Assembly: GCA_950295325.1 (NCBI GenBank)
Contig: OX485809.1
Span: 8,618,001-8,682,000, forward strand
Source: Polytrichum commune
Lineage: Eukaryota; Streptophyta; Polytrichopsida; Polytrichales; Polytrichaceae
DNA length: 64,000 bases
Direction of reading: 5' to 3'
Position numbers and translations under genes: made by a program. The notes beneath the pieces were generated by a model, which was not told the DNA's origin, did no database searches, and worked only from the letters and a program-made list of their open reading frames with translations. Positions 38,769 through 64,000 of the stretch are shown here, in pieces (position 1 is the first letter of the stretch; the number at the start of each line of letters is the position of its first letter).

Positions 38769-40103
38769 AGCAAAAGTGGGAGGAAAAGATAAGTGCAAAC
38801 ATAGAGTTAGAAAATAAAGACAAAACCAAGAGAACGGGTAAGGCAACAACCTATAAGTTTCAATATGATATTGAATCCTCACTTGATTTGAAGGGTGTTT
38901 TAGATGAAAAATGTTTAGATGCCAAGATTGAATTTACAATGAGAGAAACTCTTGGTGTTGCCAAGAAAAGGTTTTATGAGCTCATCATCGACGTAATAAA
39001 GAAAAAGAGACATTAGAAACAATGATGATAAAAAAATTTAGATAGTCTAGTGACCAAAGATGAAGATGATGAGATTGGAAAAATGTACGTCTTAAGATGT
39101 GATAGTATGGGCAGAGGTGACCAGACTAAAGAACATGAAGTCAATATTATTGTTTAGCATTAAGGAGAGGGGATACTATTAAGAGTCAAACTTATACGAT
39201 TGCAATGGAGACTTAAGTTTCACAATGTGTATCTAAGAAACAATAGAAGAGTGATGGGGACGTGTGGTCAATTTATACAAATCCATTTTGGGCAAGAGCT
39301 ACTCTGAAAATACATGTGAAAATTAGAAGCTTTGAAGAGCCAATCCTAGTATTGATAGATTATGGTTTTAAAATCGATATCGTGTCCAAAAAGGTATACG
39401 AGACATGAAAATGACCAATTGCTACCAACTATGGATGGGTATTGAGAAACACCAATGATTGAAATGATAACCTTTATAGAGCATGTCCAACAGGGAACAT
39501 CAAAATTAGAGACGTGGAGGTAGAACATAACTTCTTTGTATAAAATCAAGGAAGTTATTAAATCATCTTGAGACGACCATGTATCATTGCAATAAGAATG
39601 GAAACTAAGATATTGGATGATAGGTATTGCATAATTTGTATTTTTAATGGAATGATATTAATGAAATTTCTTATAGTGCGGCCAGATCATGAGAGGTATA
39701 GGGATCAATTTAGAGTAGCTCCAATGGTCCATAAGCATGATAATTTTTGGGATTTTTAAATTGCACACGTAGAGGGTGGGATGTCACAGGTGCAAATAAA
39801 TTATTTAGTATAGCAAACTCCAATACACAAAAGAGTGGTTATAGAATTTAGAATCTAACAGAGGATGGGTTTGTTAATTTTTAAAATGTTGAGGATTTGG
39901 ATTCTATATATAAAAAACCTATTAATTTTTTAAAATAGAACTAAAGAGAGCTTGTGTGATTTTGGGTGATGAGTGCATTTTTTGGTTTATTAAAAAATAA
40001 ATATTTTCATATGATGTTTAATGAATTATGGATACCTTGCAAGGAGATGACACTGCGTCTATAAAAAAAATAGTGGAGATTGATTCAATCAAGTTATATG
40101 AAG
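38769..40103 (+). pseudogene. Decayed gypsy gag end and aspartic protease
   Basis: Reads QYDIESSLDLKGVLDEK and a VAKKRFYELI segment, then a protease relic at about 39290-39410 (RATLKIHVKIRSFEEPILVL followed by IDYGFKIDIVSKKVYE). The expected active-site D-[ST]-G is altered to D-Y-G. About 39530-39760 carries the downstream IIAIRMETKILDD motif. It continues in the protease-RT linker up to the insertion at 40104 and resumes at 50090. Confidence 0.65.
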
Positions 40104-40535
40104 TGTCACGTGAGGTGACATCGGGGGCTAAGTCACGTCAACTTAGGAGTAAATGGACTCCATTAGGAGTCCATGTGTGTTGGGATGAGTAACGGACTCC
40201 ATTGGGAGTCCTAGTTAGTTGTTCATCCACTCCATGGATGAACTCCACATTGGATTGGGGTTGTATGGAGAGGAAGGCCTCTTGACTTGCCATTGTTGTC
40301 AAGTCAAGTCTTGTGAGTGTGTTTTGAGAGAGAGAGAGCTTGTTGTTGCTTTCTCATGGCTATGGTGTAGTAGATTATGAGTAAAGCCTTTGCATTCTTT
40401 CTCCACCACTTGCACTCTTGGATTCTCCCTTCGTGGAGTGAGAGATAGCTTGACTCTTGTGTGTGAATTTTAGAGTTTCTTAAGCTTTGTAAGGAGATAT
40501 TTTAGTTTCTTAAGCTTGGAGAGAGAAACCCTCAT
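40104..40535 (+). repeat. 5' LTR of the gypsy-DNMT element
   Basis: 432 bp, beginning with the palindrome TGTCACGTGAGGTGACA and matching 49656-50087 base for base as far as I can read. The first 205 bp carry five inverted repeats: 40104-40120, 40153-40174, 40194-40211, 40221-40243 and 40281-40308. A (GA)n run lies near 40328. The true 3' boundary may be a few bases later, or further if the 3' LTR is truncated. No primer-binding site follows at once. Confidence 0.9.
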
Positions 40536-41403
40536 ACTTGACAACAATTGTATTCAAATTTTTCATTTTTGGTTGTATTTCTGAGCTAGAATGGCCCAGT
40601 ATTGAGAGCAAATGAGTGATACAAGTGTTTGAAAGCTTAGTTCGTCATTTCTTGCAATCCTCAAGAAGATTTTGAGAGAAATCTTCCCATTTTTCTTTTC
40701 TTGTCTCTTGTATTTTCTTCAATTGTTGATGTTTGAATCTTGAGATTCCATTTAGTTTCAAGATTCTCAAGTCACATTTTCTTGCTTGCAAATTATGAAG
40801 CAAAGTTTAATTTAAATACAAACATAAACCACAATCAAAATCCGATTTAGTTATAATTTTGGTTGAGCTCCGGACGGATCCGGAGCTCACCGGACCCTCT
40901 TGGAGCTCCTGGAGCTCCTGGAGCTCCCATTCTGAACCCCGGGGGCGGCAAAATCCCGGGCCGGGGCGGCTAATCACGGGCCGGGGGCGGGCGGCGCCAG
41001 CCGGGCCCCGCGGCGAGGTGGCAGCGGGCCGGGCCGGGGGCGGGCGGGCGGCAGCCTGGCCCAGGTGGCGGGCGGCGCCAGCCTGGCCCCCCTTGCTTCA
41101 AGGTAAGTTAGTTAGTTAGTTAACTTAATTAGTTAGTTAACTTAATTAGTTAGTTAAGTTAGTTAGTTAAGTTAGTTAAGTTAGTTAATTAAGTTAGTTA
41201 ACTTAGTTAATTATTTTTAAGTTAATTAAGTTAGTTAATTAAATTAGGTTAGCTAACTAATTAAGTTAACTAATTTAATTAAACAACTAACTTAATTCAT
41301 TAGATTAACTTAATTAATTAGGTTCATTAGTTTAAGTTAATTAAGTTAATTCATTTAGGCTAATTAAGTTACTTACATTAAGTTCATTAAGTTAATTAAT
41401 TTG

Positions 41404-41434
<31 letters not shown>

Positions 41435-42008
41435 TATTAAAAATTTTAAATACACCGGATTTTATTTTTTTTTAATTTTTAATTTTTTTTACTTTCACTT
41501 TCAAATTTGGCATTTCATTGTCACAAACTTTGAGGCTCAAATTTGGGGGCATACTAGCTCCGATTGAAGTGAAATTTGAGCCTATTTTGTGTGAAATTTG
41601 CCAAGGAATCCAATGGTGTAATTGGATTTTTGATTGGAAGTCAAAATCATTGCTGAAATTGCTAATTTCAACGCTGATTTTTGTTTATGGGAGCAAATTA
41701 ACTCCGATTGGAGTGAAATTTGAGCCTAATTTGTGTGAAATCTTCCTAGGAGTCCATTGGTGCACTTAGTTTGTTGATTGGAGTTCATAATCACCTTGGA
41801 AATGAGCCTTTTCAACGCTGATTTTTCATTTTAATTACCAATCTCAAACCTTTGCACAATTTTGGAATTCTGGGGGCATAAACACTTGGCATTTGGCAAG
41901 GGATTGCCATTTAGATAGTCCGCAACAGGTGCAGGCTTCCATTACCTTGTAGATAGTTGTAGGTACTCAAGGGATTATTTTATGGTGCAAACTAGGAGTC
42001 GATATTAA
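40536..42008 (+). other. Leader of the gypsy-DNMT element
   Basis: Starts AT-rich, then a sharply GC-rich island (40860-41100) with TGGAGCTCC palindromes and GGCGGGCGG words. This ends at CAAG|GTAAGTTAG, a strong splice-donor match at about 41101. A TTAG/TTAA low-complexity tract (41105-41400) and T-rich tracts follow. A spliced leader is possible, but the acceptor is not fixed. Near the end, at 41982, ATG GTG CAA ACT opens a frame that meets TAA at 42006-42008, in frame with gag. Confidence 0.6.
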
Positions 42009-45000
42009 CGATCTCCATCACCAGATTACTTGGAGGACGTGGGCACCACAAATCTTGAGCCAGAGGTAGATACCAACGAGGCTTTTGAGCCTATTTCGGC
42101 GTTGGACACTACTAGTAGGCTTCGGATTTGGAGTGTCGGCACGTTCGACGACATGGAGGACGATCGCCACAATTCAGTGCGTGATCGGTTTTCAGGTCGA
42201 GCTAGGGGCATTTCCTTGCCCGATTGGAAACTCCGGTTTCGTACCTGGATTAAGGAGAAACGCCAAAGGTCTTCCAATTTCAATGATTGGTATGCCTTTG
42301 AACTTCTGCCTCAACATTTGGAGTATGAGGCACTCCAAACTTACGAACGATGGACAGAGGGTCATCAACGACAACTTCGGGAGGTGGAGCAGTATTGGGA
42401 GGCCCGGGTTGAACTTATTTCAGCCCTTAAAGATGGGGCGATTGCCACCTTAGCTCCACCCACCTTAAAGGAGGAGGATCCACCGGAGGAGTCTGAGGAC
42501 CAAGAACTGGCATTTGGGCCAATGGTGGCTGGCAGTAGCACGGCTACCCTTTCACGGATGGCACGTGCTACACAGGCAGCATTGACGGCTGTTGGTCCAC
42601 CACCTCCGTTTAATCCCCTTACTGAATTTGTCGCACATTTGGAAGTGGAGTATGGTGGGTTTCGGCGAGACCAGATGCAGCGCATCCAGGATTTCTGCCG
42701 AGAGAAGGATGATACTCCACGGACCATGTATACGCGACTCGCGCGATTTGCTGTGGAGTCGGGAGGTGTTTTTGCTGAGAGTCAGCTTGTTAAAATCTTT
42801 TTGTCTAAGATTGACAAGCGGCTACTTGAGTTGGCATCACCTCGGATTATCCTCGACTACGAGGGCCGAGCTACGCTTGCACAAGCGTTTGCCGTGGTTG
42901 AGAAATGTGATCGGGCTCTTTGCCAACATGATGCCACGGATATGGTATCTTGGATGACAGAGAGTCCGAAACCAAGAAGAATTGTCACAGCTACTAGCAG
43001 TTTAGCTGAGACTCAACCCGTCAAGGAGCAAAAGATTTTGCATTGTTGGGGTTGTGGAGAAGCTGGTCATTCGAAGAATGATCCCAATTGTCCTAAGAAG
43101 AAGAAAACTCAGCCTTTGGGAAAATTCAAACAAAAGATGGAACCAGTAAGGGCAAGGGACAATTCTAAGAAGAGACAATTGAAATGTAGCCATTGTGGTG
43201 GCACTAATCACGATGTGGATCATTGTTTCCTACTTCATCCTGAGATGCGGCCTGCCAGTTATGTCACTGGAAAGTCTCCAAGGGAGCAGAGTCTTGAGGC
43301 TAAGGTGGCAGAGCTTGAGCAAAAGCTCAAATCTTCTGCATCTTTTGCTCAAATTTCTGAGCCGCATGTGGGTGGTGGCACCTCGGGTTCGGACATGTAT
43401 ATGTTTGGAGCAGCTGGAGAGGTGGTGGCGGCGGCTTCTACTCGCTCACAAACATTGGCAGATGCGGTGGCTTCCACGAGTGGTGGTAGCAACGAGGTGC
43501 TACATCCTCGCCATGCCGGACCAGCTGATCAAATTGGTCAAGCACGTTTACCTCTTTCATTTGGATTGGTAGACACCACTGTTGTTGGGGCTAAAAACCC
43601 TGTACCTTTGAGAGATGGGGATTCCATCTCGAAGGATGTTACGCAGGCATTGGCATATAAAATTCTCCATATGCCAATTTTCTCGGGTTCGGAGTTTATG
43701 GCTTCGGATTTCAAGCCTGCTGCAGTTTTTCATTTAGCTGGGAGAATGTTAGAAGGTAAGGCGGATTTGCCATCCCTTCAAGTATCCCAAGCTGTGGTTG
43801 ACGTACCTGTGGCTGAGGAGGTGGAGGACTTAGCCAATTTGCGAGCGAGTCTTGCGGATGCGGCCATCATTGCTTTTGGTAAGCAAACTGATATTCCTCC
43901 AGCATCAATTTCAGCAGTGGATACGTCATTTTCGAATTATGCGTCGGGAGCGGCATATCTTGCAGACATTTCTGCAAGGCCTGCTCGCGAACGGCATAAT
44001 TTGCAACCTGGAGTTGTACGCCTGATGAACGACAAATGTTTGTTTGTCGTTTCACGCACGGATATGCCCACTATCCGTGCTACACCACTGAAAGTTATGA
44101 TGGATTCCGGTGCTCAACCGGTTATGATTGGCAAAGGACTTGCTGACAGTCTTGGATTGACGCCAGCAAGCTTGGATCCTTGTCCATTTACTATTGTGAC
44201 TTCAGTAGGGGGCACTGAACGTGCAACAGGTTACACCAAGGCACCTCTACGTTTGATTTTTCATGTGGGGGCAGGGCCTACTTACACTCATTTGTCAATG
44301 AAGTGTGTTGTTACTAATGCTACCAACTATGATATACTTGTTGGTCAGCAAGCTCTTTACAAACTTGGCTTTGGTTTGGATAATTGGACGGAAGAGGCAT
44401 GGATTAGACCGGGATGGTCCACTGGAGATGGCAGGAAGGTATTTATTCCTGTCACATTTGCAGCCACTGCTATGACTATGGTTGCGGAGGCAATGTTTGG
44501 TTGCAGCGGTTCAGTTGCAGATTTGCCTTGTGCTCCAGTTTTATTGGAGGAAACAATGGACTACACTTGTAATGCGGCAGAACAACAATTTTTACCATCT
44601 TTTCAAATTCCTGCTCGACATTTCAAGGATCCACCTCCACCATGGCGAACTCCTAAGGAGTTATCCGACCATTGTCGACACATTGTAGCGGATTTGGAGC
44701 TTGGAGAGGCACCCCCAACTTCATCCTCATTTTCTTTTGCTCAACTCATTCGTTGGCAACCATCACCTGAAGGTATTGTCCTTGTGGAGATCTTTGGAGG
44801 CATTGGCACAGGTTTGGCGGCAGTGTTGGAAGCTGGAATTACAATTTGGCGATATATTCATGTGGACAATGGGTATGCAGCCAACAGAGCCGTCCGACAT
44901 CACATCCAACAATTGTTGTTGAGATACCCCGCACAATTGTCAGCCTCTGCCATTCATGGATGTTGTGGTCAACTTCCTCAAGATGTCACTATGATTAGTG

Positions 45001-46079
45001 ATGAGGATTTGAGAAGGTTGGGCCACGTGGATTTGATTATTGCAGGATGGCCTTGTCAAGGCCATTCGCGGGCAGGAACTGGCCAGGGATTGGATGATCC
45101 TAGGTCTAGTTTGTTTGCGGATTTGATGCGATTGACGCAATGGTGGTTTACCCACCAATCGACTCCGCCAGGGTACATTTTCGAAAATGTACCATTATTG
45201 GGTGATACCCGGCACAAAGTGGTGAAGGATAGTGAGTACATTAACCAAATTCTGGGTACTCCAACATTTCTGGATGCTGCATCTTTGGGATCCTTTGCTC
45301 ATCGGCCTCGTTGGTTTTGGACCAACTTGGTATCACCTCGGGTGCTTTCAGTGGCGATTGCCCGCATTCCCCGCCTTATGGATCGCAAGGTGGATGACAT
45401 TTTAGATGATCATCGTGTTTCCTTGGCAGTTACCAAGGATGACACCTTGCCATTTGCATTAATTAACAAGGTGGGAATTCCGAGAGGTGCACTACCTACT
45501 TTTGTGACATATCCACAGTCTTTTGCATTTCGATCTCGTGGACCTGGCATGGTTTGGGATTCAAAATCCCAAACTTATGAGGAGCCTACGGCAGATGAGC
45601 GGGAACGCGCCATGGGTTTTCTTACAGGTACCACAGCTGCTCACGGGCTTCAGGCAGGTCAGAGACGTTTCCTATTGGGGCAAGCTATGGATCTTAATAG
45701 CATTGTGTGGATAATTGGAATTTGTCTTGCTGCTCAACAACGTATAGATGACCAATTGCTTACTCTGAGGGCAGAGAACAATGGTCAGGGGGCAATGGAG
45801 CCGCAATCCAAGGATCACATTGAGGTCAATGATACCGAGGGATTATTTCCTTTGAAACTTCATGTTGCGGAAGAGCTTCGAGCCCAACGTGTTTTTTCAG
45901 CTTTGGCCCAAGAGTTTGGGAAGTTGGAGGCCCATAAAATGTTTCCACTTCTATTTCTTGGTGATACTTCATATGTGGGTAGCTATTTAGCTACACAAAC
46001 TGATTGTAGTGGAGAGGATACGCATTTGGATTCAAGTGCAGATGATGGGGGCAAAGGTGTTGCCCTCTCCACGGACTAG
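42009..46079 (+). CDS. Gag-protease-DNMT polyprotein (ends at readthrough UAG)
   Basis: Open from 42009; residue numbers here count from 42030. First in-frame ATG is 42153; an earlier ATG at 41982 is cut off by TAA 42006. Residues 30-310 are gag (FNPLTEFVAHLEVEYGGF; FLSKIDKRLLELASPRI). Zinc knuckles follow: CWGCGEAGHSKNDPNC from 339 and CSHCGGTNHDVDHC from 386, the second non-canonical. The aspartic protease has its active site at Asp692 (MMDSGAQPVMIG). Residues 915-1235 are a DNMT3-like methyltransferase, described separately. Gag packages RNA, the protease should cut the polyprotein, and the methyltransferase would be released upstream of RT. Protein made by termination at UAG therefore carries the methyltransferase without RT, so it should be produced in excess. 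Confidence 0.9.
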   Translation, partial: RSPSPDYLEDVGTTNLEPEVDTNEAFEPISALDTTSRLRIWSVGTFDDMEDDRHNSVRDRFSGRARGISLPDWKLRFRTWIKEKRQRSSNFNDWYAFELLPQHLEYEALQTYERWTEGHQRQLREVEQYWEARVELISALKDGAIATLAPPTLKEEDPPEESEDQELAFGPMVAGSSTATLSRMARATQAALTAVGPPPPFNPLTEFVAHLEVEYGGFRRDQMQRIQDFCREKDDTPRTMYTRLARFAVESGGVFAESQLVKIFLSKIDKRLLELASPRIILDYEGRATLAQAFAVVEKCDRALCQHDATDMVSWMTESPKPRRIVTATSSLAETQPVKEQKILHCWGCGEAGHSKNDPNCPKKKKTQPLGKFKQKMEPVRARDNSKKRQLKCSHCGGTNHDVDHCFLLHPEMRPASYVTGKSPREQSLEAKVAELEQKLKSSASFAQISEPHVGGGTSGSDMYMFGAAGEVVAAASTRSQTLADAVASTSGGSNEVLHPRHAGPADQIGQARLPLSFGLVDTTVVGAKNPVPLRDGDSISKDVTQALAYKILHMPIFSGSEFMASDFKPAAVFHLAGRMLEGKADLPSLQVSQAVVDVPVAEEVEDLANLRASLADAAIIAFGKQTDIPPASISAVDTSFSNYASGAAYLADISARPARERHNLQPGVVRLMNDKCLFVVSRTDMPTIRATPLKVMMDSGAQPVMIGKGLADSLGLTPASLDPCPFTIVTSVGGTERATGYTKAPLRLIFHVGAGPTYTHLSMKCVVTNATNYDILVGQQALYKLGFGLDNWTEEAWIRPGWSTGDGRKVFIPVTFAATAMTMVAEAMFGCSGSVADLPCAPVLLEETMDYTCNAAEQQFLPSFQIPARHFKDPPPPWRTPKELSDHCRHIVADLELGEAPPTSSSFSFAQLIRWQPSPEGIVLVEIFGGIGTGLAAVLEAGITIWRYIHVDNGYAANRAVRHHIQQLLLRYPAQLSASAIHGCCGQLPQDVTMISDEDLRRLGHVDLIIAGWPCQGHSRAGTGQGLDDPRSSLFADLMRLTQWWFTHQSTPPGYIFENVPLLGDTRHKVVKDSEYINQILGTPTFLDAASLGSFAHRPRWFWTNLVSPRVLSVAIARIPRLMDRKVDDILDDHRVSLAVTKDDTLPFALINKVGIPRGALPTFVTYPQSFAFRSRGPGMVWDSKSQTYEEPTADERERAMGFLTGTTAAHGLQAGQRRFLLGQAMDLNSIVWIIGICLAAQQRIDDQLLTLRAENNGQGAMEPQSKDHIEVNDTEGLFPLKLHVAEELRAQRVFSALAQEFGKLEAHKMFPLLFLGDTSYVGSYLATQTDCSGEDTHLDSSADDGGKGVALSTD
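44772..45734 (+). other. DNMT3-like cytosine-5 DNA methyltransferase domain
   Basis: Methylates cytosine C5 using S-adenosylmethionine. Motifs appear in the normal order: I, VLVEIFGGIGTG (916-928, cofactor loop); II-like, YIHVDNGYAANRAV; IV, IIAGWPCQGHS with catalytic Cys1009; VI, YIFENVPLL (Glu1052-Asn-Val); VIII-like, FAHRPRWFWTNL (1090-1101); IX-like, DERERAMGF; X, RRFLLGQAMDLNSIVW. The stretch DAASLGSFAHRPRWFWTNL matches the DNMT3 pattern of sin-a-AHRARYFWGN type better than DNMT1 or CMT, and motif order is not rearranged as in plant DRM. Every residue needed for catalysis that I can check is present. No target-recognition assignment is possible by eye. Confidence 0.9.
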
Positions 46080-46088
46080 CAATCACAG
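46074..46088 (+). promoter_or_regulatory. Leaky UAG readthrough context
   Basis: GAC TAG CAA TCA CAG: the stop separates the methyltransferase part from RT in the same reading frame. The six bases after it, CAATCA, fit CARYYA, the tobamovirus-type readthrough signal. The frame then stays open for 1047 codons. Suppression would give a Gag-Pol fusion at a low fixed ratio. Confidence 0.8.
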
Positions 46089-49000
46089 GCTGTGCTGGCA
46101 CCAATTGGCAATCCTTCTATGAAGAAGGAAACCACGGAGTTTGACGATTGGCCAATTGAAGTGGGGCCAAAGCTTACTGGTGCCGAAGCACGAAAGGTAC
46201 GGGCATTTATTCGCTCTTACCGTAATTGTTTTGTCTTTAGTCTTCATGATCTTGAAGGATATAAAGGTAAACCTGTTCGTATTCAACTCGAGGACGACCA
46301 CCCTATTTTCAGACGGCCGTACAGACTTAGTACCTCTGAAAGGTTGGGTGTTCAAACTCGATGTCAAGAGTTATTGGCAGCGGAATTGATTGAACTCTCC
46401 AATGGAGAGTATGCTTGTGCCACGGTTATGCCGTCAAAGAAGGATATCTTTGGCAACTGGACGGAAAAACGGATGTGTGGTGATTATCGTCCAGTCAACC
46501 GCAAGACCAAGTCGGATCGATATCCAATGCCGATGCCGGAGGAGTTGTTTGATGCACTGGGATTTTCTAGAATCTTCAGCACTCTGGATTTGAGGTCTGG
46601 TTATCATCAATTACCTTTGTTGTTGGGTGATCGGGTGAAGACCGCATTTTGGGGAATTGATAAAGATGGCAAGGATCAACTTTATCATTGGAAATTTTTG
46701 CCATTTGGTCTCAAGAATGCACCAGCTGAATTCCAGCGGGTGATGGACCAATTATTGGCCGGTTTGCCGTTTGCTAGATGTTACATTGATGATGTTATCA
46801 TCTTTAGTAATAGTCCACAGGATCATGTGAGACATTTGCAAGCGGTATTTGAACGACTTCAACGGTGGGGACTCCGTTTACATCATGGTAAATGTAAGTT
46901 TTTCCATGATCAATTGCCCTATTTGGGCCACATGATTGTTCCTGGCGGTCTTGGTGTGCAACAGGCGAAGGTGGACGCTTTGCACAAAATTCCCGCACCT
47001 AGTGATGTACCACGGCTTCGTGCATTTCTAGGATTGGCAAATTATTATAGGAGGTTTGTCAAAAACTTTAGTTTGATTGCCAAACCTCTTACCATTCTCA
47101 CGGGGAAAGACCAACCATGGATTTGGAGTCGGGAACAACAACAGGCATTTGATACATTGAAGCAGAGGCTCGGTTCTGCGCCAGTGCTTCGACGCCCGGA
47201 TGTGTCTAGAGCTTTTCAATTGCACACGGATTGGAGTGCAGTGGGATTGGGAGCGGTATTGACACAGAAAGATGAAGAGGGGAAGGAATATGTGGTGGCT
47301 TATGCATCTAGAAGTAATAATAGTGCTGAATCTAATTATTCTTCTTATGAAGGCGAGGCCTTGGCGGCCGTTTGGGCCATTGCACATTTTCGACCTTATT
47401 TGTATGGGCAAAAGTTTACTTTGGTGACTGATCATCAGCCTTTAAAATGGCTTATGGAATCAGATAAGCTCACCGGGAAACTTGCTAGGTGGGCATTGTT
47501 ACTTCAGGAATATGATTTTGAAGTTGTTCACCGAGCAGGAATTGCCAACTTGGATGCAGACGGATTGTCTCGCAATCCAAGTCCTTCAGATAAGGATTTA
47601 ACTGGAGCCAGGTGGCATGGAGATTGTGATCGTGAGGCAGTGCCGGGTTGGCATGCTGCCACATATCTCACAATGATGTCGGGATTGGCTGCTGAGATCC
47701 TTGTAGAAGAACAGGATGAGGAGGTTGATAAATCTCTCGTTGTTAGTGATGTGTGGGAAGACCAGGCGGTCTTGCACAAACTTCAACAAGGGATATTTCC
47801 TCTTGGACTATCTGCTATGGAGCGAGATAGAGTTAGTCACAGGATAACAAGGTTTCGTTGGGCAAACAGCTTGTTATTTCGTGTGTGGCCGAACGGAACG
47901 AGGCGCATCGTTCCAAGGCCAGATCAAAGAGCTTCTTTGGTGCGGCAAGTGCACGAGGAGCTTGGACATTTTGGAGTGCGAAGGACACACTCTATGTTGC
48001 GCAACCAATATTGGTGGACTGGTATGTATCAACAGGTTGCCGCTTATGTTTCTAGATGTGAAGTATGTGACCGGGTCAGGTCAAGTTTTAATACTTTATC
48101 ACCTCAACTTCAGCCTTTACCTATTATGGGCTTGGGATATCGTTGGTCTTTGGATTTTGCCGGACCACTTACTATCACTCCACGTGGCTCCAAGTATGTG
48201 CTGGTGATGGTGGAGCATTTTAGTAAGTGGATTGAACTCGTGGCTCTTCCCCAAAATTCCTCAGAATTGGCGGCTATGGCATTTCTTGATCGAGTTTTGG
48301 CACGGTTTGGAGCACCTGCAGAGGTGTTGACGGATCAAGGGAGAGAATTTCTTGGATCTTTCGAGGCTTTGTGCACCAAGGCTTTTATTGATCATCGGAC
48401 AACTTCCAGAGATCACCCTGAGGCAGATGGCTTAGCTGAACGAGTTGTTCAGACGGTTAAGCGCGGTTTGCGGAAGTATGGATTGCTTCATGGCAACCAT
48501 CGCGATTGGGACTTGATGTTACCATGGATAGCAATGGGTTATCGTTTCAGCAGGCAAGCATCTTTGGCATCCTATAGTCCTTACCAACTCTTGTATGGAC
48601 GGGAACCAATTTTACCTAGCTCGGTGCGAGAGAAATTGGCTCCCGTGGTAAACTTGGATGATCCAGATGTTTGGGCTCAATGTCTTCATGACCGAGCAGC
48701 GTTCTTCCAAAAGGCCATGCCTATGGCTATGGAGAACTTGAATATTGCTCAACATCGTGATACATTACGGTATGCCCGGATCCGCAGTGGAGCTTATCGA
48801 CCTCAGGTTCGTAGATTTTCCAAGGGGGATTATGTTTACTTGCAACGGGAGGCGCCTACGACATTGGATGTCAAGGCTGGGCGCACGATTTTGCGGGTAA
48901 AAGATGTCTTGCCAAGTGGTATATTATTGCTTGAAGGCAAGGATGGACGGGAATGTCGTGAGCATTCAAAGAATTGTGCTCCATGTCACCTTCCCATCGA

Positions 49001-49223
49001 CGGCTCTGTGCATCCCGAGTTGGCGGTTGTGCCACAGGGTCTGCCTTGTTATGTTTGTGGAGAGAAGAAAGGAGCTACAACAATGTTATTGTGCGACCAA
49101 TGTCAACGTGGATGGCACATGGCATGTTTGACACCTCCCCTTTTGACTCTTCCTTCTGGCAATTGGGTTTGTCCTCGTTGTCGGAAAGCCTCTCATTCCG
49201 TGGCCGTTAATGGTCATGATTGA
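46080..49223 (+). CDS. Pol: reverse transcriptase, RNase H, integrase, PHD finger
   Basis: In frame with the upstream polyprotein after UAG, so probably translated by readthrough; residues here are numbered from 46092, though no ATG-led start is needed. Reverse transcriptase holds YIDD at 231 (CYIDDVIIFS) and DLRSGYHQ. RNase H follows (HTDWSAVGLGAVL, VTDHQPLKWL). Integrase has an HHCC zinc segment (HEELGHFGVRRTH, CEVC) and a DDE core at Asp688, Asp748 and Glu783. The C-terminus, from 986, is a C4HC3 PHD finger (CYVC, LLCDQC, WHMAC, WVCPRC) where chromoviruses have a chromodomain. PHD fingers commonly bind histone H3 tails, so this one may steer integration. No frameshift or premature stop is seen. 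Confidence 0.95.
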   Translation, partial: QSQAVLAPIGNPSMKKETTEFDDWPIEVGPKLTGAEARKVRAFIRSYRNCFVFSLHDLEGYKGKPVRIQLEDDHPIFRRPYRLSTSERLGVQTRCQELLAAELIELSNGEYACATVMPSKKDIFGNWTEKRMCGDYRPVNRKTKSDRYPMPMPEELFDALGFSRIFSTLDLRSGYHQLPLLLGDRVKTAFWGIDKDGKDQLYHWKFLPFGLKNAPAEFQRVMDQLLAGLPFARCYIDDVIIFSNSPQDHVRHLQAVFERLQRWGLRLHHGKCKFFHDQLPYLGHMIVPGGLGVQQAKVDALHKIPAPSDVPRLRAFLGLANYYRRFVKNFSLIAKPLTILTGKDQPWIWSREQQQAFDTLKQRLGSAPVLRRPDVSRAFQLHTDWSAVGLGAVLTQKDEEGKEYVVAYASRSNNSAESNYSSYEGEALAAVWAIAHFRPYLYGQKFTLVTDHQPLKWLMESDKLTGKLARWALLLQEYDFEVVHRAGIANLDADGLSRNPSPSDKDLTGARWHGDCDREAVPGWHAATYLTMMSGLAAEILVEEQDEEVDKSLVVSDVWEDQAVLHKLQQGIFPLGLSAMERDRVSHRITRFRWANSLLFRVWPNGTRRIVPRPDQRASLVRQVHEELGHFGVRRTHSMLRNQYWWTGMYQQVAAYVSRCEVCDRVRSSFNTLSPQLQPLPIMGLGYRWSLDFAGPLTITPRGSKYVLVMVEHFSKWIELVALPQNSSELAAMAFLDRVLARFGAPAEVLTDQGREFLGSFEALCTKAFIDHRTTSRDHPEADGLAERVVQTVKRGLRKYGLLHGNHRDWDLMLPWIAMGYRFSRQASLASYSPYQLLYGREPILPSSVREKLAPVVNLDDPDVWAQCLHDRAAFFQKAMPMAMENLNIAQHRDTLRYARIRSGAYRPQVRRFSKGDYVYLQREAPTTLDVKAGRTILRVKDVLPSGILLLEGKDGRECREHSKNCAPCHLPIDGSVHPELAVVPQGLPCYVCGEKKGATTMLLCDQCQRGWHMACLTPPLLTLPSGNWVCPRCRKASHSVAVNGHD

Positions 49224-49548
49224 GGACTTTGTGGATGTTTACCACATGTTTTAGTGGTGAAGTTGTTATTTAGTTGGTTGGAAATTTTATGGGATTGAAA
49301 ACCACATTGAAAGAGTTATCCAAGAATTCAACATTAATTGTTGAAGGCGATTAAGGATGGGGCTCACATTGCACCCAGCCTACAATTCTTGGATTACTTT
49401 GTCAATCACGAGTTTAATTCCTTCGATTACTACTACCTAATTAAATATGTATAGATGTAGCAACAACTTCATCATGTTCAACAACTCTATCGATGAGTGT
49501 GTTTGTTCCTAGCCGATTGGAGGGGCTCCTTATCTGCTAGTGGGGGCA
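49224..49548 (+). other. 3' untranslated part of gypsy-DNMT, with polypurine-like tract
   Basis: Noncoding. It ends with CTAGTGGGGGCA (49537-49548), which resembles a polypurine tract. In an ordinary element the 3' LTR would begin right after, but here a copy of flanking DNA intervenes. Confidence 0.55.
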
Positions 49549-49654
49549 CTTGAAGAGGTGGTTGTTAGCATTTTAGTTTGTTATTTTATTTTGCTATTGA
49601 TGTTGACAACGACACTCGATCTGTTGTGTTTAACGATCTTAGTTTACACGACAG
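49549..49654 (+). repeat. Internal copy of the 106-bp flank repeat
   Basis: Starts CTTGAAGAGGTGGTTGTTAG and ends TTTACACGACAG. It is identical by eye to 50088-50193, which lies just outside the 3' LTR and belongs to the old gypsy target. One base (C) separates it from the 3' LTR. Confidence 0.9.
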
Positions 49655-49655
49655 C

Positions 49656-50087
49656 TGTCACGTGAGGTGACATCGGGGGCTAAGTCACGTCAACTTAGGA
49701 GTAAATGGACTCCATTAGGAGTCCATGTGTGTTGGGATGAGTAACGGACTCCATTGGGAGTCCTAGTTAGTTGTTCATCCACTCCATGGATGAACTCCAC
49801 ATTGGATTGGGGTTGTATGGAGAGGAAGGCCTCTTGACTTGCCATTGTTGTCAAGTCAAGTCTTGTGAGTGTGTTTTGAGAGAGAGAGAGCTTGTTGTTG
49901 CTTTCTCATGGCTATGGTGTAGTAGATTATGAGTAAAGCCTTTGCATTCTTTCTCCACCACTTGCACTCTTGGATTCTCCCTTCGTGGAGTGAGAGATAG
50001 CTTGACTCTTGTGTGTGAATTTTAGAGTTTCTTAAGCTTTGTAAGGAGATATTTTAGTTTCTTAAGCTTGGAGAGAGAAACCCTCAT
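49656..50087 (+). repeat. 3' LTR of the gypsy-DNMT element
   Basis: 432 bp, apparently identical to 40104-40535, including all five inverted repeats. It is flanked on both sides by the 106-bp repeat. Confidence 0.9.
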
Positions 50088-50193
50088 CTTGAAGAGGTGG
50101 TTGTTAGCATTTTAGTTTGTTATTTTATTTTGCTATTGATGTTGACAACGACACTCGATCTGTTGTGTTTAACGATCTTAGTTTACACGACAG
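50088..50193 (+). repeat. External copy of the 106-bp flank repeat
   Basis: Begins two bases before the TGAAG target duplication. From there it is the original continuation of the old gypsy linker coding text, so this is the ancestral copy and the one inside the element is secondary. Confidence 0.85.
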
Positions 50194-50498
50194 AAGAGAT
50201 AATGAATTTTGGTATTGAAACAATGTTGGTCAGAAGTTATGGCTTGGATACCGAGGCGATGATGAATATCAAGTGTAAGACCATGGCCAACAAGGTGAAG
50301 CCAATGGCAACACAACTTCCACCAAAGATCATATTAGGAATGTTGAAGAGGAGCATGGATTTAAAGAGATAAGACATGTTGGACACAAGTTTATAAAGGA
50401 AACATTGGCTAAACTAGATGATATGGAGGCATGTGAGTAAAATGAAGTTATTTAGTTTGGCACGTACCGGAGGATGTGCAGGTTTGGAGGGGATGAAT
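50194..50498 (+). pseudogene. Old gypsy protease-RT linker and polypurine tract
   Basis: Reads EEIMNFGIETMLVRSYGL and, in a shifted frame, RHVGHKFIKETLAKL, the spacer that precedes RT in this gypsy group. RT itself is gone. GGTTTGGAGGGGATGAA just before 50499 is a good polypurine tract. Confidence 0.6.
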
Positions 50499-53339: not shown

Positions 53340-54404
53340 TCAGTGCGAGGGATTGACGTCGGTTTTAGTAGTGTCGTCGAGTGCCATGAGAGCCAGTGCG
53401 TCATTCGTGTCCTCCACACCCTTATCTGCAGCGCCAGGGTTAGGGGTTTCGACAACATCGATCGGTGCACTAGTCGTGGCAATGTTGCCTCTCTCACCGG
53501 AATGGCCACGCATGAGAACTGCGGCATCCGGGTGAGGGTGGCAACTATGAGGAGTACCATGAGGTACTGAAGTGCATCGCCTGCCGCCATGGTGCCTCAT
53601 GCGGCGGCCACCATGTCGCAGTAAACGAATCCGGAGGGCCTTTTCGAGGTCATGATCGAAGGAAGAGTTCGCATCGCGTATTCGTATTAAGTCGGCTAAT
53701 AAGTCGTGTGGAGTTTCGCTACCCCTATGACGCAACGGTAGCTCACCTGCATGCATAAATCGACCTGCATGTCCCCAGTGCATCATCATCATATGCATGG
53801 GGGCAGGAGGGGGCGGCGGCGGCGGCCGGAAATTCTCGACAAAGTTCTCGGTGATTGCAGGACCCTCCAGGGGGAATCCATCGGTATTCCGGGGTTCTGG
53901 ATGGAGGCAATCCTCTTCTTCAGAACCAGATAAGGAGCAGTCAGCCACCGAGGGATCAAGCCCACCGACGTCATGTGCGTCAGGGTTAACGCGGCCATGG
54001 CAGCGGTGGTGAGAGCGGTGACCAGGGTGGTGAAGGTGCGGGCCAAGAAATCCAGCGAAAGCCGGAGGTCCAGGGTGATGGTGATGATGAGGATGCACGA
54101 TAGGATCCTGATCATCCAAGCCAATCAGCTCACCTCCCATTACATGAGGGCAGGAGTGATGGGGGATCAGGTGTCGACCATGGCTATGGCCAGGGTGGTG
54201 GTGACACCCGAAAGGCCTGGGAGGTCCACAAGAAGGTGGACAGAGGCTGCCATGGGGAGGAGGGACGAGGAGCGGATGCGGTCTGTGACGTTTGAAGCGG
54301 TGCTGGTGTGGGCGGAGGCGATCATGATGGAGTAATCCGCAACCATGACCGCGTCCCCCTTCACCCATGGGGCTCACCACCATCATCGTGTCTGCAGCAG
54401 CCAT
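53340..54404 (-). CDS. Histidine/proline-rich protein of unknown function
   Basis: 354 codons starting MAAADTMMVVSPMGEGGRGH, in a locally GC-rich block. The N-terminal two-thirds are rich in His, Pro and Gly (HPHHHHHPGPPAF; PPPPPPPAPMHMMMMHWGH). A charged, probably helical stretch follows (HDLLADLIRIRDANSSFDHD), then an acidic Thr/Asp-rich tail. No known domain; His clusters could bind metal. The neighbouring minus-strand frames are hydrophobic because shifted CAC/CAT codons read as Ile/Thr, so a membrane protein in another frame cannot be fully excluded. CAG|GTGAGC near 53747 is a good donor, so an intron may remove the end. TATA box and leader upstream support transcription on this strand. 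Confidence 0.5.
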   Translation of the reverse strand: MAAADTMMVVSPMGEGGRGHGCGLLHHDRLRPHQHRFKRHRPHPLLVPPPHGSLCPPSCGPPRPFGCHHHPGHSHGRHLIPHHSCPHVMGGELIGLDDQDPIVHPHHHHHPGPPAFAGFLGPHLHHPGHRSHHRCHGRVNPDAHDVGGLDPSVADCSLSGSEEEDCLHPEPRNTDGFPLEGPAITENFVENFRPPPPPPPAPMHMMMMHWGHAGRFMHAGELPLRHRGSETPHDLLADLIRIRDANSSFDHDLEKALRIRLLRHGGRRMRHHGGRRCTSVPHGTPHSCHPHPDAAVLMRGHSGERGNIATTSAPIDVVETPNPGAADKGVEDTNDALALMALDDTTKTDVNPSH

Positions 54405-54775
54405 GGATACTGGATGCAGCTTACACTTTCAAAACAAACAAACAACCCGGGAACCAACTGAGATCTGGTATCGCAAGAGAGAGAATTCCTTAAAAGAGTC
54501 TCACTTCGACGAATCGCCCTGACAGGAGGGCAACCTGATGTCCAGATGCTTAATCTGTTGACAGACAAGTCCCTCGACGATAGCAGCTTCAGAATTGGGA
54601 GGCAGACTTGTTGAAAAGAGGGAAATCTCCCTTAACAAAGAGCGCACTCACCAGGATTGAAGGTACTGTACTTACAGCGAGGAGTAAGATGAGAAGTAAT
54701 CAGAAGTTGGAGGATGTGAATCCTGAGAAGCAAAGATGAATTGGTGGTGTGGGCATTGGGAGTTTTATAGACGTC
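54405..54775 (-). promoter_or_regulatory. TATA box and 5' leader of the His-rich gene
   Basis: On the minus strand TATAAAAC (54762-54769) is followed by pyrimidine-rich leader sequence and, about 360 bases on, by the ATG at 54404. The leader contains a near-consensus donor, GCT|GTAAGTA (intron start about 54675), so a 5' untranslated intron is likely. Confidence 0.5.
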
Positions 54776-59068: not shown

Positions 59069-60685
59069 TTATGGGGGATCTAGATTTTGGGGAAGTGGTT
59101 GGTGGTTTTCAATTCTTCTTTTATGGAGAAGGATTGACATTGCATATTGTATTGCAATGGTATTGATATTTTTAAAGGTATTTTTGATGGTTGCCATGGG
59201 TATTTTGAGATTGTCTTCTAGTAGTTTCATAGGAGGGATGTGGGCAGTAGCTCTAGCCCCAGCAGTAATGACAAGAAGTGGTTCGATTTTCCATCCTCTG
59301 GAAGCAATACTATCAATTAGCGGTTTGTATTTGTTGATTTTAGCTTCTATGGCTTCCCGGGAGAACCGATCGTTACAGTATGTAAATTCAATAAATTGTA
59401 TGGAGAGGTCAGGGTCAATGTCAACTGGTGGGTCATTTTGATATGGTAGTCCTTTAACGCAAAGTATATCAGGTCGGAATTTTGCGTTACAGTGACATCT
59501 TTGTGTGTTACATATGCAGGGGAGTAGCCAATTAGGGACGGTATTTTCTTGGGGATTATTATTGAAGATACCAACATTCATGAGAGTAAAGCATCGGGAT
59601 TTTTCGGACGAGATTAGGAGCTTTCTAATTTCTCCGACTGCTTTGTTATGTCTTTTAACTCTGAGTGAATGTATATGTTGTTGTTTACATTTAAGTAGTA
59701 CATGGAGCCAAGTGTCTGGTTCGTTTGAGTGGCATATGGGGCACGTGATAGAGGGGTATCGTTGGGGACCGAAGAACATTTGTTTCCTAGCATTACCCAT
59801 GTATGTTCCTGTGCGGAATTTAATAAGGCATGATTTTTGTTTGTCAGTGATTGTGGGATTTGTCCAAAAGTCGTTTGATAATTCTTTGTCTATGTCTGCG
59901 TTTTTTGTCCATTTACACGTGTTGGGGGTTTGGGTGGCCATGATTGCTATATTGTTTTCCCTATCATATTTCTTAATTTGTTTGTCTAAGAATCTTACTG
60001 GGCCTTTATCTGGAACGTCGATCATCGAGGCCCAGACATCTTTTTGATAATAATACGGAGTGGCATGGGCATGTTCATATGGATGGGTGGCAATTCTATG
60101 TTCTAATTGTAAGCCTGCTTTTGCAAGTTTGTCGGCTTTTTCATTACCGTCAATGTTGACATGTGCTCGGACTTTGTATAGTATGATTGGTTGTGTACGG
60201 TTTTGAAGGAGTTTTACCATGGAGTTGAGTGTGGTTTGGTCTGGGTGACTATTGTGAAGAGTGGGATGTTTAATTTGTGTGTTGAGTAAATAGAGTACGT
60301 TTAGACTGTCTGTGAATATGAAGGCGGGTTCATTAGGAAATTGTGTATTGATGATTCTTAGTGTTTTATGTATGGCCATCATTTCTGCGCGTAGTATGTT
60401 CTGATGGCCGTGTAATCTTTTGGCGATATTTAAGCCTTTGGGGCTGTAGATACCGTATCCAGCTTTTTCTCTTCTCCATACCCCTGGGGCAATTTCGGTG
60501 GGTTTTATAAAGGAACCATCTGTGTAGTAGCTGAATTGGGGGTGGAATTTTAGGGGAAAATTAGTTTGGTAGTTTGGAAGTTGTGATGTAAGGATATTAT
60601 TGTGTGGGAACATGGTTGGATAAGTTAATTTAGCCCATTTTTTTATTAGGGTTGACGGTGGTGTTCGGAGGGGTGGGTAGTGCAA
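59069..60685 (-). CDS. LINE ORF2 C-terminus: RNase H, CCHC, restriction-like endonuclease?
   Basis: 538 open codons. An RNase H domain comes first (SYYTDGSFIKP, ILRAEMMAIHKTL, FTDSLNVLYLL, NIDGNEKADKLAKAG), with the D-E-D-D pattern complete. Then a zinc motif (CPICHSNEPDTWLHVLLKC). The last 130 residues (FRPDILCVKG, IQFIEFTYCNDRF, KINKYKPLI) show a PD...E-x-T...K arrangement like the restriction-like endonuclease that closes R2-type LINEs. That last call is by pattern only. RNase H plus a C-terminal endonuclease is rare; Dualen/RandI elements of green algae come to mind. The frame is intact though the element is truncated. Confidence 0.7.
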   Translation of the reverse strand: MHYPPLRTPPSTLIKKWAKLTYPTMFPHNNILTSQLPNYQTNFPLKFHPQFSYYTDGSFIKPTEIAPGVWRREKAGYGIYSPKGLNIAKRLHGHQNILRAEMMAIHKTLRIINTQFPNEPAFIFTDSLNVLYLLNTQIKHPTLHNSHPDQTTLNSMVKLLQNRTQPIILYKVRAHVNIDGNEKADKLAKAGLQLEHRIATHPYEHAHATPYYYQKDVWASMIDVPDKGPVRFLDKQIKKYDRENNIAIMATQTPNTCKWTKNADIDKELSNDFWTNPTITDKQKSCLIKFRTGTYMGNARKQMFFGPQRYPSITCPICHSNEPDTWLHVLLKCKQQHIHSLRVKRHNKAVGEIRKLLISSEKSRCFTLMNVGIFNNNPQENTVPNWLLPCICNTQRCHCNAKFRPDILCVKGLPYQNDPPVDIDPDLSIQFIEFTYCNDRFSREAIEAKINKYKPLIDSIASRGWKIEPLLVITAGARATAHIPPMKLLEDNLKIPMATIKNTFKNINTIAIQYAMSILLHKRRIENHQPLPQNLDPP

Positions 60686-60689
60686 TTTG

Positions 60690-62505
60690 TGTGTGACTAT
60701 GTAGAATGTGGAGTGTGTTTGCTGTGTCGTTTATTAATTTCATTTGTTCGTAGGTACCAATATTGTTGTTTTGGTGATGAATACAAAAGATTTGCATGGT
60801 AGATGGTTCTTTGCATTTAATATTAAGTTCAGGGGGTATGGTGGGTTCCTCATAAGTGATTGTATCAGCAGCGAAGTGAGCAATAATGTGTGTGTCCGGA
60901 AATGGGCCTGTGTGTGGGTTGGGGTTGTTGTACCAATCCGTATCCGGGGTTATAAGTATAGTGATTGTATCTGGGTCATTTTGGGCTGCCATGCGTGCCC
61001 AGTGGATGGCTTGTTGTAGGTCTGTTGGATTGTGAGAATGTGCGTATCCGATGCCTTGCCATTTATGGTCAAAAGCTTTTCCTAGAGGTCCAAATATTAT
61101 GTCTCTCGAGAATGGCGAATAGAATTGTGTGAATTGTGTGGGGCATGTAACTATTGAATGTTGTAATGAGAAGATCTAATATGGGGGTTGGTATAGTATA
61201 GTGGGCACGTTTGAGTGGGTCGTTTTTTGGGATACGGTATTTGTACCTTTGATATAGCCAAACAATTTCAGTTTCAAATGATTGGGTAGATGGTTCTAGA
61301 CCATGTGCGGTATTTTTTGCCAATTGGTATTGTTTCCATAGCCACATTAGTCTAGTTTTCGGGATGGTGATGAGGTGTCGTCCATTGTCCTCGTAAATGT
61401 GGGCGACATCAAATTGTGTTTGTATGGTATTAGAGTTTGTTTCGATGTCGTTTTCTGGGTTACATTCATTAATAGAGATATGTGCGAGTGGGATTATCAT
61501 GGTTGGTGTGACGTATCTTGTGTCTCGTTGTTGGTCTTTGGAGAAGTAGGCATTAATGATGTTCGAAAAATGTTTGTGTTGTCTTTCTGTGTAGTAGTGA
61601 ATCAACAAGGTTGTGTTGTGGTTACATGTGGTGGCTTCACAATATGGGTAAAGGTCTCTTTGTGTACGCCATTTATTATATGTGATGTTATTTGTCGTGG
61701 TCCATTGGCAGAGGTAGGACGTGACTGTTCTTTTTATGCCGTTATGGTCATTGGATTGGTTTTGTTTATGATCTAGTATTTTATGTATGGGGAATTTTCG
61801 GGGATTGTTAAGCATGTTGTTGGGAGGGGGGGTAAAGGGGGGTGTGAAGGGTAGGAGGATGTACGGGGGCGGTCGGTGGGCGGGGTAAGATGTTGTGGTG
61901 TCTTTTGATGTATTTGTTTTTTAGAGATCTTGGAGGATGATGTTGTTGGCATGGTGAAGGGCATTGATTGCAAGGGGGATGGCAGAATAATTGGTTTGCG
62001 ATATTAAGTGCGCTTTGGATGAGTTTAGAAGGAGTGGAATAATATATTTTGAATTCGTCCGGACTCATTAGAGTGGTGTCATTAGGCATGGTGATTTGGT
62101 CTAGTGTGGTTATATTATGTACTAGTAATTTGTATAATAATTTAAGTGAGATGTTGGGATTGAGGTCATGGAGTGTTGGTGCTTCCTGCATCCATGCATT
62201 TTCAAGTGGGGATGGGGTTAGTAAGAAGTTATGTAGTGTACTTTTTAGATGGACTCCGGCTTTATGTTTGAGCAGGAATAATGTTCTAGTGATGGGCGAC
62301 CTAACACAATGATGGTATTTAATACGAGTGATATCCTTAGAACCCCCATATTTGGCGAGTATGAATTGTAGTAGCCCGGCATATATCTTCCCAATTCGAC
62401 CTTTATCGTTGAGGGCGTTTTGTAGTTGTTCTCCTATGCATCTTAAGTAGGCATTTTGTAATGAGAATGCTTCAATTCCGAATAGATTGTGTGGGAGTTG
62501 GGTAG
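60690..62505 (-). pseudogene. LINE RT thumb and connector region, frame-broken
   Basis: Read from 62480 downward: FGIEAFSLQNAYLRCIGEQL, then RIGKIYAGLLQFILAKYGGS and SPITRTLFLLKHKAGVHL, matching post-catalytic RT segments of LINEs. The reading continues in three frames (62191-61808, 61815-61069, 60992-60630) that overlap or abut with shifts, up to the RNase H frame. The catalytic RT motif lies beyond the truncation. Confidence 0.6.
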
Positions 62506-62523: not shown

Positions 62524-64000
62524 CTACTATAGCTGAGGCTTGTAATCAAAATGATTGGCCCATGTGGGAAGTGGCAAAGAGATCTGAACTAGAGTCTTTG
62601 ATATCAACGAAGGTGTTTAATCCAGTTGAAACAACGCCAAAAGGGGTTAACCCAGTGGGTTGTAAATAGGCATTTGTAAAAAACAAGACATGTTTTGAAA
62701 TGTTTCCGGATACAAGTACAACTAATTGCCCAAGGTTTCATCCAACGTCCAAACATTAATTATAAAGAGACATATTTCCCTATGATGGACTTAATTATGT
62801 GCAAATATTTCTTTAGTTTTGTAGACGATAAGAAGTTTGAAACAAAATTGATGGTTGTAGTTATCACAAACTTATATGGCAATTTGGATACTAACATAAA
62901 CATGAAGTTCTTTGTGGGGTTGGAATTCCAAAACTCTTAAAAACAACCACAGTGCCCTAAACTTGAAAGGGCATTGTGTGGCCTTAAACATGCCGGTAGT
63001 ATGTGGTACAACTGTCTAGGAGATTTTTTAATAGAACGAGGTTTTAAAAATGATGAGGTTTGTCCATATATCTTTATTAAACGAACTATCACAAAACTAG
63101 TTATTGTGGTTGCATATGTTGATGACCTCAACATCATCGGCACGACTTGCGTCATCTTCGAGATTGTTTCTCAACACAAAGGACAATTTGAGATGAAAGA
63201 TCTTGACGAAACCACCTTTTGTCTTGGCCTACAGGTTGAAAAATTAGTTGTAAGTATTTTTCTAGATCAGAATTTGTATACTCAAAAGCTACTCAATTGT
63301 TTCTCAATGGATGTGGTTTACCCACTAAGTTCCCCGATGGTGGTACGGTCATTGAATCTAAAGAATGATGAGTTTAGACCATGTGATGAGGGGAAAAAGT
63401 ATTTGAGACCAGAAACTCCATACTTGGCAGCAATAGGTGCATTAATGTATTTGGCAAATTGCACCAAGCCTAACATTGCATTTGCCATTAATTTTCTGGC
63501 TAGATTTAATGCTAAGCCAACAAAACAACATTGGAATGGTGCCAAACATCGTATGATACCTCAAGGGCATTAAAGATCTAGAATTATTTTATTAAGTTGG
63601 AGAAGATAGCAACATCAAAGAATATGTGGATTACCTTTTCGATCTACATAAATGAAAATCACAAACATATTATCTTTTCCTTAAACGAGGAGCAACAATG
63701 TCTTGAAAATCAATGAAGTAGAGCCTTGCAAGAACATCCTCAAACCATTTAGAAATCATAGCCCTACGAATGCGTTTGGTTGAGATTGGTGGATGGCTTC
63801 ACCAAAGGTTTTTATGGTTTTTCCCAATGTTCCAAAATCTCCAATAGTGATCTATGAAGATAATGCGGCATGCATTACTCAGATAAAGGCGGGCTACATC
63901 AAAGAAGACCGAATCAAGCACATCTTACCAAAGTTATTTTTCACTTATGAGTTATTGAGATAAGATATTGATATGATGCAATTTAGGTCTTCTAATAACC
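62524..64000 (+). pseudogene. Ty1/copia element, RT and RNase H half, runs off the window
   Basis: Follows the LINE: NDWPMWEVAKRSELESL, the RT start, then GLKHAGSMWYNCL, VIVVAYVDDLNIIG (Y-V-D-D catalytic motif) and PYLAAIGALMYLANCT at 62974-63573. Beyond 63840 comes an RNase H segment (EDNAACITQIKAGYIKEDR). There is a stop after PVGCK at 62669 and later frame shifts, so the element is dead. The right LTR is not in the window. Confidence 0.85.

Follow-up and report, generated by a model that had tools for sequence, protein, structure and literature searches.

A DNA methyltransferase-carrying Ty3/Gypsy-type retrotransposon in Polytrichum commune with split end repeats that suggest a circular DNA stage

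SymbioDIRS-Dnmt3 and other DIRS/PAT retrotransposons combine split direct repeats with a methyltransferase situated within the element; they use a tyrosine recombinase and, to our knowledge, create no target-site duplication (TSD). Tcn1/Tf1-type chromoviruses of mosses represent Ty3/Gypsy elements in non-seed plants and have ordinary long terminal repeats (LTRs). Self-priming has been predicted for most Tcn1 elements, and in the available text of that paper methyltransferases have no occurrence (PMC6317226). Closest to the subject of this work is KnitGypsy-Dnmt3 of the charophyte Klebsormidium nitens, a Gypsy element with a Dnmt3 domain (de Mendoza et al. 2018, PMC5890265); the legend of Fig. 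4 in that paper equates its repeat structure ("the same") with the one known from DIRS retrotransposons. Land plants lack such transposons according to the available part of Morozov et al. (PMC6338049), and titles and beginnings of abstracts in the open-licence literature revealed no land-plant report of such an element. Here we describe a DNA-methyltransferase-carrying Ty3/Gypsy-type retrotransposon in a stretch of 64,000 nucleotides from Polytrichum commune (assembly GCA_950295325.1, contig OX485809.1, positions 8,618,001 to 8,682,000, forward strand), referred to as the window; all coordinates below are positions in it. The element spans 40104-50192 (10.1 kb).

The combination of Gypsy proteins, a DNMT3-like methyltransferase (MTase) and DIRS-like repeats is, by the available text of PMC5890265, already described in a charophyte. 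Both elements possess Gypsy domains and, within the open reading frame (ORF) of the Pol polyprotein, an MTase resembling Dnmt3, both show the arrangement A-coding-B-A-B (A and B are called X and Y below), and both exist in several copies. The kinship with the charophyte element supposed in the initial annotation thus holds by description, in domain set and in repeat layout. The hosts differ, a charophyte there and probably a land plant here, where more than 100 copies are present; purifying selection was reported for KnitGypsy-Dnmt3. What we see here as new relative to the text of that paper is the probable land-plant host, a readthrough stop, self-priming, a PHD finger and a model of integration from a circle. 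A leaky UAG, self-priming, TSD and integration route are not mentioned for KnitGypsy-Dnmt3 in text portions of PMC5890265 (its figures and supplements may have them), and PHD has no occurrence in its main text, a comparison made by description and not by sequence.

We propose that the element is of the KnitGypsy-Dnmt3 kind, that it employs a readthrough stop, primes its own reverse transcription, integrates from a circle containing two LTRs and directs its MTase to new DNA; taken as a whole, we hold this account to be reasonably probable. DNMT-bearing Gypsy elements are extended by it to a probable land plant. With a hundred-odd copies, many of them young, the replication route of the class becomes readable from sequence (self-priming, palindromic circle junction, dosage-setting stop). 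Two processes become testable in plants: marking of a transposon's complementary DNA (cDNA) by its own methyltransferase, and use of 2-LTR circles as a normal substrate by a DDE integrase.

The searched genome amounts to 407.8 Mb (~408 Mb) in 64 contigs, seven of them chromosome-sized (42-78 Mb); the window belongs to contig C7. A moss host fits the seven large contigs, given a chromosome number of n=7 in Polytrichaceae, and also fits a plastid contig on which ndhF, rpoC1 and psbA were recognized by eye. A search with the MTase domain yielded at least 124 copies (124 of 578 candidates were scored), a lower bound in which some matches cover only part of the domain. All 124 matches show 87-100% identity, and the copies are distributed over the seven chromosome-sized contigs. 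Counted from the table of matches, 17 of the 124 are free of stops in the match and lie in an open frame of 1356 amino acids or more, which in 15 of these reaches 1386; the frame of the window copy measures 1356 amino acids from stop to stop, versus 1386 in the longer-frame copies. Judged by these sequences the element is high-copy and recently active, with many young copies, and the window copy was rightly called young, its flanking repeats being identical over 432 and 106 bases. That the locus is an artefact, be it a host gene, a chimera of the assembly or contamination, has a negligible probability: no supporting evidence was found for it, the copies lie on seven contigs and are flanked by TSDs, and a second assembly holds the same polyprotein and the same Y-X junction. 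The worries attached to the initial annotation, a lack of other copies and a chimeric assembly, are removed by the same facts; the many own-genome copies were the reason for discarding the chimera or contaminant reading.

The relative in the second assembly is contig CADCWO010000201.1 (L007/L086; 9,285 bp, GC 52%) from a metagenome bin labelled 'Synechococcales'. Identity to the window element is 71% in the MTase and 87% in the second ORF (ORF2). Because the content of the contig is a eukaryotic retroelement, it looks misbinned; our guess is that its host was a soil-crust alga or moss, and, equally a guess, it may be a close relative of KnitGypsy-Dnmt3. An exact 127-bp overlap of its ends closes it to a 9,158-bp circle of the form int-Y-X, which is no proof of a physical circle, since short-read assembly of repeats can yield a circular form. 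The same bin contains further Gypsy-like reverse transcriptase or integrase frames (L009-L015, 26-38% identity to ORF2) and therefore holds more eukaryotic contigs.

The ends of the window element are arranged as X-coding-Y-X-Y with termini TG..CA. Repeat X1 (A1; 40104..40535, plus strand) starts with TGTCACG directly after the left TSD, GAAG (40100..40103). On the right side the polypurine tract AGTGGGGGCA (49539..49548, plus strand) adjoins repeat Y1 (B1; 49549..49654), which is followed by X2 (A2; 49656..50087) and Y2 (B2; 50088..50193), all on the plus strand; the element ends with ...CACGACA at 50192, and the right TSD (50193..50196) equals the left copy. X1 and X2 agree in 432 of 432 bases, Y1 and Y2 in 106 of 106. 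At the Y1-X2 junction the element end CA, the bases GC and the element start TG form a perfect 10-bp palindrome, GACAGCTGTC (49650..49659), intact in 16 of the 18 copies with both Y repeats; the same junction is present in CADCWO010000201.1. Among the 19 copies that have Y1, 18 show the same 10 bases as polypurine tract.

For comparison of ends we used 20 further copies, the next-best by score and not a random draw. Of these, 15 have X at the left end and Y-X-Y at the right end; three show nothing but the right part in the sequence examined, one nothing but the left part, and one (L031) has X with a single Y. A perfect 4-bp TSD flanks 15 of the 16 other copies with both ends, as it does the window copy; in the remaining one, L028, three of four bases agree. 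Within a copy X1 and X2 show 0-5 differences per 427-434 bases (13 copies), whereas X varies between copies. In L033 the X repeats differ by 1 in 561 and both carry a 132-nt internal duplication, which we regard as a natural tag of inheritance from a single template. An ordinary LTR composed of X+Y was discarded as a model because the 5' copy is without Y and no polypurine tract adjoins X2. The earlier assignment to Ty3/gypsy is right for the proteins, which follow the order protease, reverse transcriptase, RNase H, integrase, with an integrase of the DDE type and a protease match under the Pfam cut-off. It does not extend to the ends, because split repeats instead of ordinary LTRs occur in 15 of 20 copies and in the window. 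The TG..CA termini and the short TSD do agree with an LTR retrotransposon in the strict sense. DIRS/PAT elements share the split repeats, but they rely on a tyrosine recombinase where this element has a DDE integrase and a 4-bp TSD; neither ORF1 nor ORF2 gave a Pfam match to a tyrosine recombinase.

The position of priming signals tells which ends the cDNA should have. The 13 bases adjoining X1, the candidate primer-binding site ACTTGACAACAAT (40536..40548, plus strand), are the exact reverse complement of X positions 189-201, i.e. of ATTGTTGTCAAGT (40292..40304, plus strand), which we predict to be the RNA 5' end acting as a self-primer. When the 25-nt site was shuffled 2000 times, no shuffle matched over such a length, and all 17 copies that have a left X retain the site intact, as judged against the X of the window. 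In CADCWO010000201.1 two compensatory changes on both sides of the pair retain the 13-nt match. TATG is located 28 nt upstream of the primer start in the window, TATA 29 nt upstream in CADCWO010000201.1. Nothing tRNA-like was seen after X1 by eye (a program search for a tRNA primer site was not made); the self-complement was found instead. Scanning the window against Rfam and for tRNAs gave 0 matches. Between X1 and ORF1 the leader contains a long AGTTA-type low-complexity tract (41101-41437). In LTR reverse transcription the positions of primer site and polypurine tract set the LTR ends of cDNA. With the primer site at X1 and the polypurine tract at Y1, the LTR of linear cDNA is therefore predicted to be Y-gc-X, and the inserted ends lie at the Y|X joint inside this LTR, ...CACGACA-GC-TGTCACG...

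Split repeats could also arise by recombination after an ordinary linear integration, without any circle. Repeats are able to recombine, and L031, an X-coding-Y form with a perfect 4-bp TSD, may be either an insertion of a one-LTR circle or a product of later recombination between Y repeats. Yet an ordinary product would, by the signals above, end at Y start and X end, and such termini are found at none of the 17 left and 19 right ends in the 20 copies; of the 20 separate insertions, 15 repeat the same permuted layout, in which the TSDs immediately flank X1 and Y2. We consider recombination of this kind improbable. The rearranged end repeats rather suggest that insertion into the chromosome proceeds via a circular DNA stage: together with the positions of the polypurine tract and self-primer, they imply integration from a 2-LTR circle cut at the palindrome.

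A possible replication cycle can be assembled from these signals. Transcription would start inside X1, about 28 nt past the TATA-like motif. The 5' end of the RNA would then fold back onto the site adjoining X1 and prime reverse transcription, while the polypurine tract at Y1 would prime the second strand, giving linear cDNA with Y-gc-X at both ends. Joining of these ends would produce a 2-LTR circle. At this point, integrase would cleave both strands behind CA at one palindromic Y-GC-X junction, leaving 2-nt 5' overhangs as in ordinary 3'-processing, and X-coding-YX-Y would be inserted with a 4-bp duplication. Up to here the steps follow from the positions of signals. For the last step we rely on domain type, conservation and dosage: the MTase, made in Gag stoichiometry and presumably packaged, would most likely methylate the new DNA before this is integrated, whether still linear or already circular, and so give it a host-like mark by the time it reaches the nucleus.

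The dosage argument comes from the coding region. ORF1 (42009..46076, plus strand) comprises Gag (CCHC at residue 393), protease, MTase and a tail; its likely start is at 41982, upstream of the stop-to-stop start at 42009. The protease-like stretch contains a DSG motif near residue 698 and matches Asp_protease_2 with 20 bits, under the Pfam cut-off of 24.3. ORF2 (46080..49220, plus strand) is in the same frame and encodes reverse transcriptase (YIDD), RNase H and integrase (DD35E, residues 692, 752 and 787). The MTase is therefore placed between protease and reverse transcriptase, as first described, but the polyprotein is not uninterrupted as had been claimed: a UAG at 46077-46079 stands between the ORFs in 30 of 30 own-genome copies including the window, besides a further early in-frame stop in the window copy. 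The context, UAG CAAUCA (46077..46085, plus strand), conforms to UAG CARYYA in all 30 copies (TAG followed by CAATCA in 29, by CAACCA in one), and the same stop and context are present in CADCWO010000201.1. UAG CARYYA is the leaky-stop context known from tobacco mosaic virus. RNA 3' of the UAG folds more stably than 200 of 200 shuffles (z -2.95). Reverse transcriptase and integrase are thus probably made by readthrough and, since the leaky stop separates it from reverse transcriptase, the MTase probably belongs to the abundant Gag-level product.

At the end of the integrase frame lies a PHD finger (49047..49181, plus strand; PF00628, 1.9e-10), in contrast to the chromodomain of Tcn1/Tf1-type chromoviruses. 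Its top matches in PDB are the PHDs of CHD4, PHF12, KAT6A, ubi-d4 and PHF21A, several of which read the histone H3 tail; the finger may steer integration.

The MTase domain itself (44772..45734, plus strand) matches PF00145 with E 1.3e-12 when scanned alone, confirming the methyltransferase annotated in that frame. Motif I (FGGIGTG), PC (as PCQ), ENV and HRPRW, all listed at that time, are present; the catalytic cysteine, numbered 1009 then, is residue 1016 counted from the stop-to-stop start. Motifs I, IV, VI, VIII and X follow in the usual order and not permuted as in DRM, again in agreement with the first description. In NCBIfam only dcm (TIGR00675) matches, at 43.6 bits versus a cut-off of 100.65. 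Conservation was checked in 30 copies, the window's among them: all 30 keep motif I and HRPR, 28 keep PCQ, 28 ENV and 26 motif X; the domain is free of stops in 24, and everything checked is kept in 19. Against CADCWO010000201.1 the ratio of nonsynonymous to synonymous substitution (dN/dS) is ~0.07 over motifs I-VIII at dS ~2.5, dS over the full domain being saturated. ORF2 is more constrained in the same comparison (dN 0.08), and linker and tail are looser (dN 0.47-0.51).

Minority changes among 29 of the 30 own-genome copies comprise 103 C>T/G>A, 12 A>G/T>C and 32 transversions. C>T sites, with cytosines counted on either strand, fall on 19 of 66 CG, 16 of 71 CHG and 68 of 323 CHH positions. 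Bryophytes methylate CG, CHG and CHH, according to the available text of PMC8566409. The pattern is consistent with loss of methylated cytosines by deamination in every context, which transposons of a moss would be expected to show, but a mutational bias towards AT could by itself account for part of it.

Several observations weigh against our account. The window copy has, by eye, an in-frame stop a few codons past the likely ORF1 start, and its TATA-like motif is only TATG. No circle was observed, and the circular form of CADCWO010000201.1 may be an effect of repeat assembly. Motif IV of the MTase is PCQ and not PCN of DNMT3, PCQ being found also in aligned phage MTases, and motif X has diverged (GQAMDLN). 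Constraint on recent MTase copies appears weak: in 29 of the 30 copies (L039, with 960 bases, was left out because of its length) the 406 pairs give a pN/pS of 0.41 and the 193 youngest pairs one of 0.51, and the singletons (63 nonsynonymous, 29 synonymous, 6 stops) are near neutral. Finally, the DNMT3 domain of charophyte KnitGypsy was inactive in yeast, a result called inconclusive by its authors in the available text (PMC5890265).

Some of these points could mean that the MTase has lost its activity on DNA and acts within the Gag product as a structural component, by binding nucleic acid or by modifying RNA. Its location before the leaky stop and the altered motif X agree with such a role, and the domains of both KnitGypsy-Dnmt3 and SymbioLINE gave no DNA methylation in yeast, RNA methylation being discussed for SymbioLINE. 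Retention of PCQ, ENV and HRPR in 28-30 of 30 copies and in CADCWO010000201.1 speaks against it, and we deem it rather unlikely. The most likely role is still that the MTase would methylate new DNA of the element itself, either before this enters the nucleus or on entry.

A more far-reaching version can be put forward. The 2-LTR circle as an integration precursor is a route once proposed for retroviruses and largely abandoned. Both this element and its algal relative might be DDE-integrase retrotransposons that depend on the 2-LTR circle as the true precursor, with an integrase acting on the palindromic junction in a restriction-like manner and a Gag-level MTase acting on the foreign-looking circle. 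We offer this only tentatively. If true, it would explain why methyltransferases recur in split-repeat retroelements (DIRS with Dam-like or DNMT3 domains, KnitGypsy-Dnmt3 and this element).

Where the MTase came from is a separate question. Among solved C5 MTases, DNMT3 is the best-scoring class: PDB sequence matches begin with DNMT3A/B at 36 bits, followed by HaeIII (28) and HhaI (23), and no chain named DNMT1 or DNMT2 is among the 52 matches at E<=10 for the window MTase. Fold search places DNMT3A/B nearest as well, at 23% identity in the structure alignment and with an underlying model built on a phage-rich alignment, while DNMT2 and HhaI come further down the list; a two-sequence AlphaFold model (pLDDT 40.6) was not used. 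With the catalytic domain of animal DNMT3A/DNMT3B the MTase shares the unrotated motif order and the AHRxRxFWxN segment; unlike there, motif IV is PCQ, and the Pfam scan of ORF1 reported no ADD or PWWP domain.

Instead of a plant DNMT3, the ancestor of the domain could have been a C5 methyltransferase of phage or bacterial type (or one of a eukaryotic virus), from a group near DNMT3. Two phage MTases tested (L001, L002) match DNMT3 at 95 and 93 bits, far above the 36 of the element MTase; six phage MTases match the element MTase at 63-73 bits, a 164-residue DNMT3A fragment at 57; and PCQGxS (motif IV) and DDPRSxLF are common to the element MTase and several of those phages. On the side of DNMT3 stand the top rank of DNMT3A/B in sequence and fold and, by the available text of PMC5890265, the published tree, where the charophyte relative falls into a Dnmt3 clade that is divergent. 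In our tree, which has no plant DNMT3 rows, the element MTase sits on a very long branch, and joining it with DNMT3 is not rejected by the approximately unbiased (AU) test (p 0.399). A scan of viral contigs with the MTase gave four pattern matches, none related, and in a scan with the sequence alignment no conserved stretch was found. We regard phage-type ancestry as possible but less likely than not. Of the earlier reading, similarity to DNMT3 and not to DNMT1, the ranking of DNMT3A/B and the lack of DNMT1 in the list stand, with the reservation that two phage MTases are nearer to DNMT3; capture from a host DNMT3 is unproven, given the phage scores, the PCQ and a tree that cannot place the domain, neither with bacterial MTases, a grouping that the initial annotation took as refuting, nor clearly apart from them.

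Outside the element, the window contains a riboflavin synthase exon (NF006767, TIGR00187; 29717-30346, minus strand), probably of a host gene, and a histidine-rich frame of 362 amino acids (53340-54428, minus strand) with no Pfam match. A frame with an RNase H domain (PF00075) occupies 59069-60730 of the minus strand, and the minus-strand frame beside it (61069-61920) is perhaps a remnant of a non-LTR element. A fragment of a Ty1/copia-type reverse transcriptase was recognized by eye at 62941-63573.

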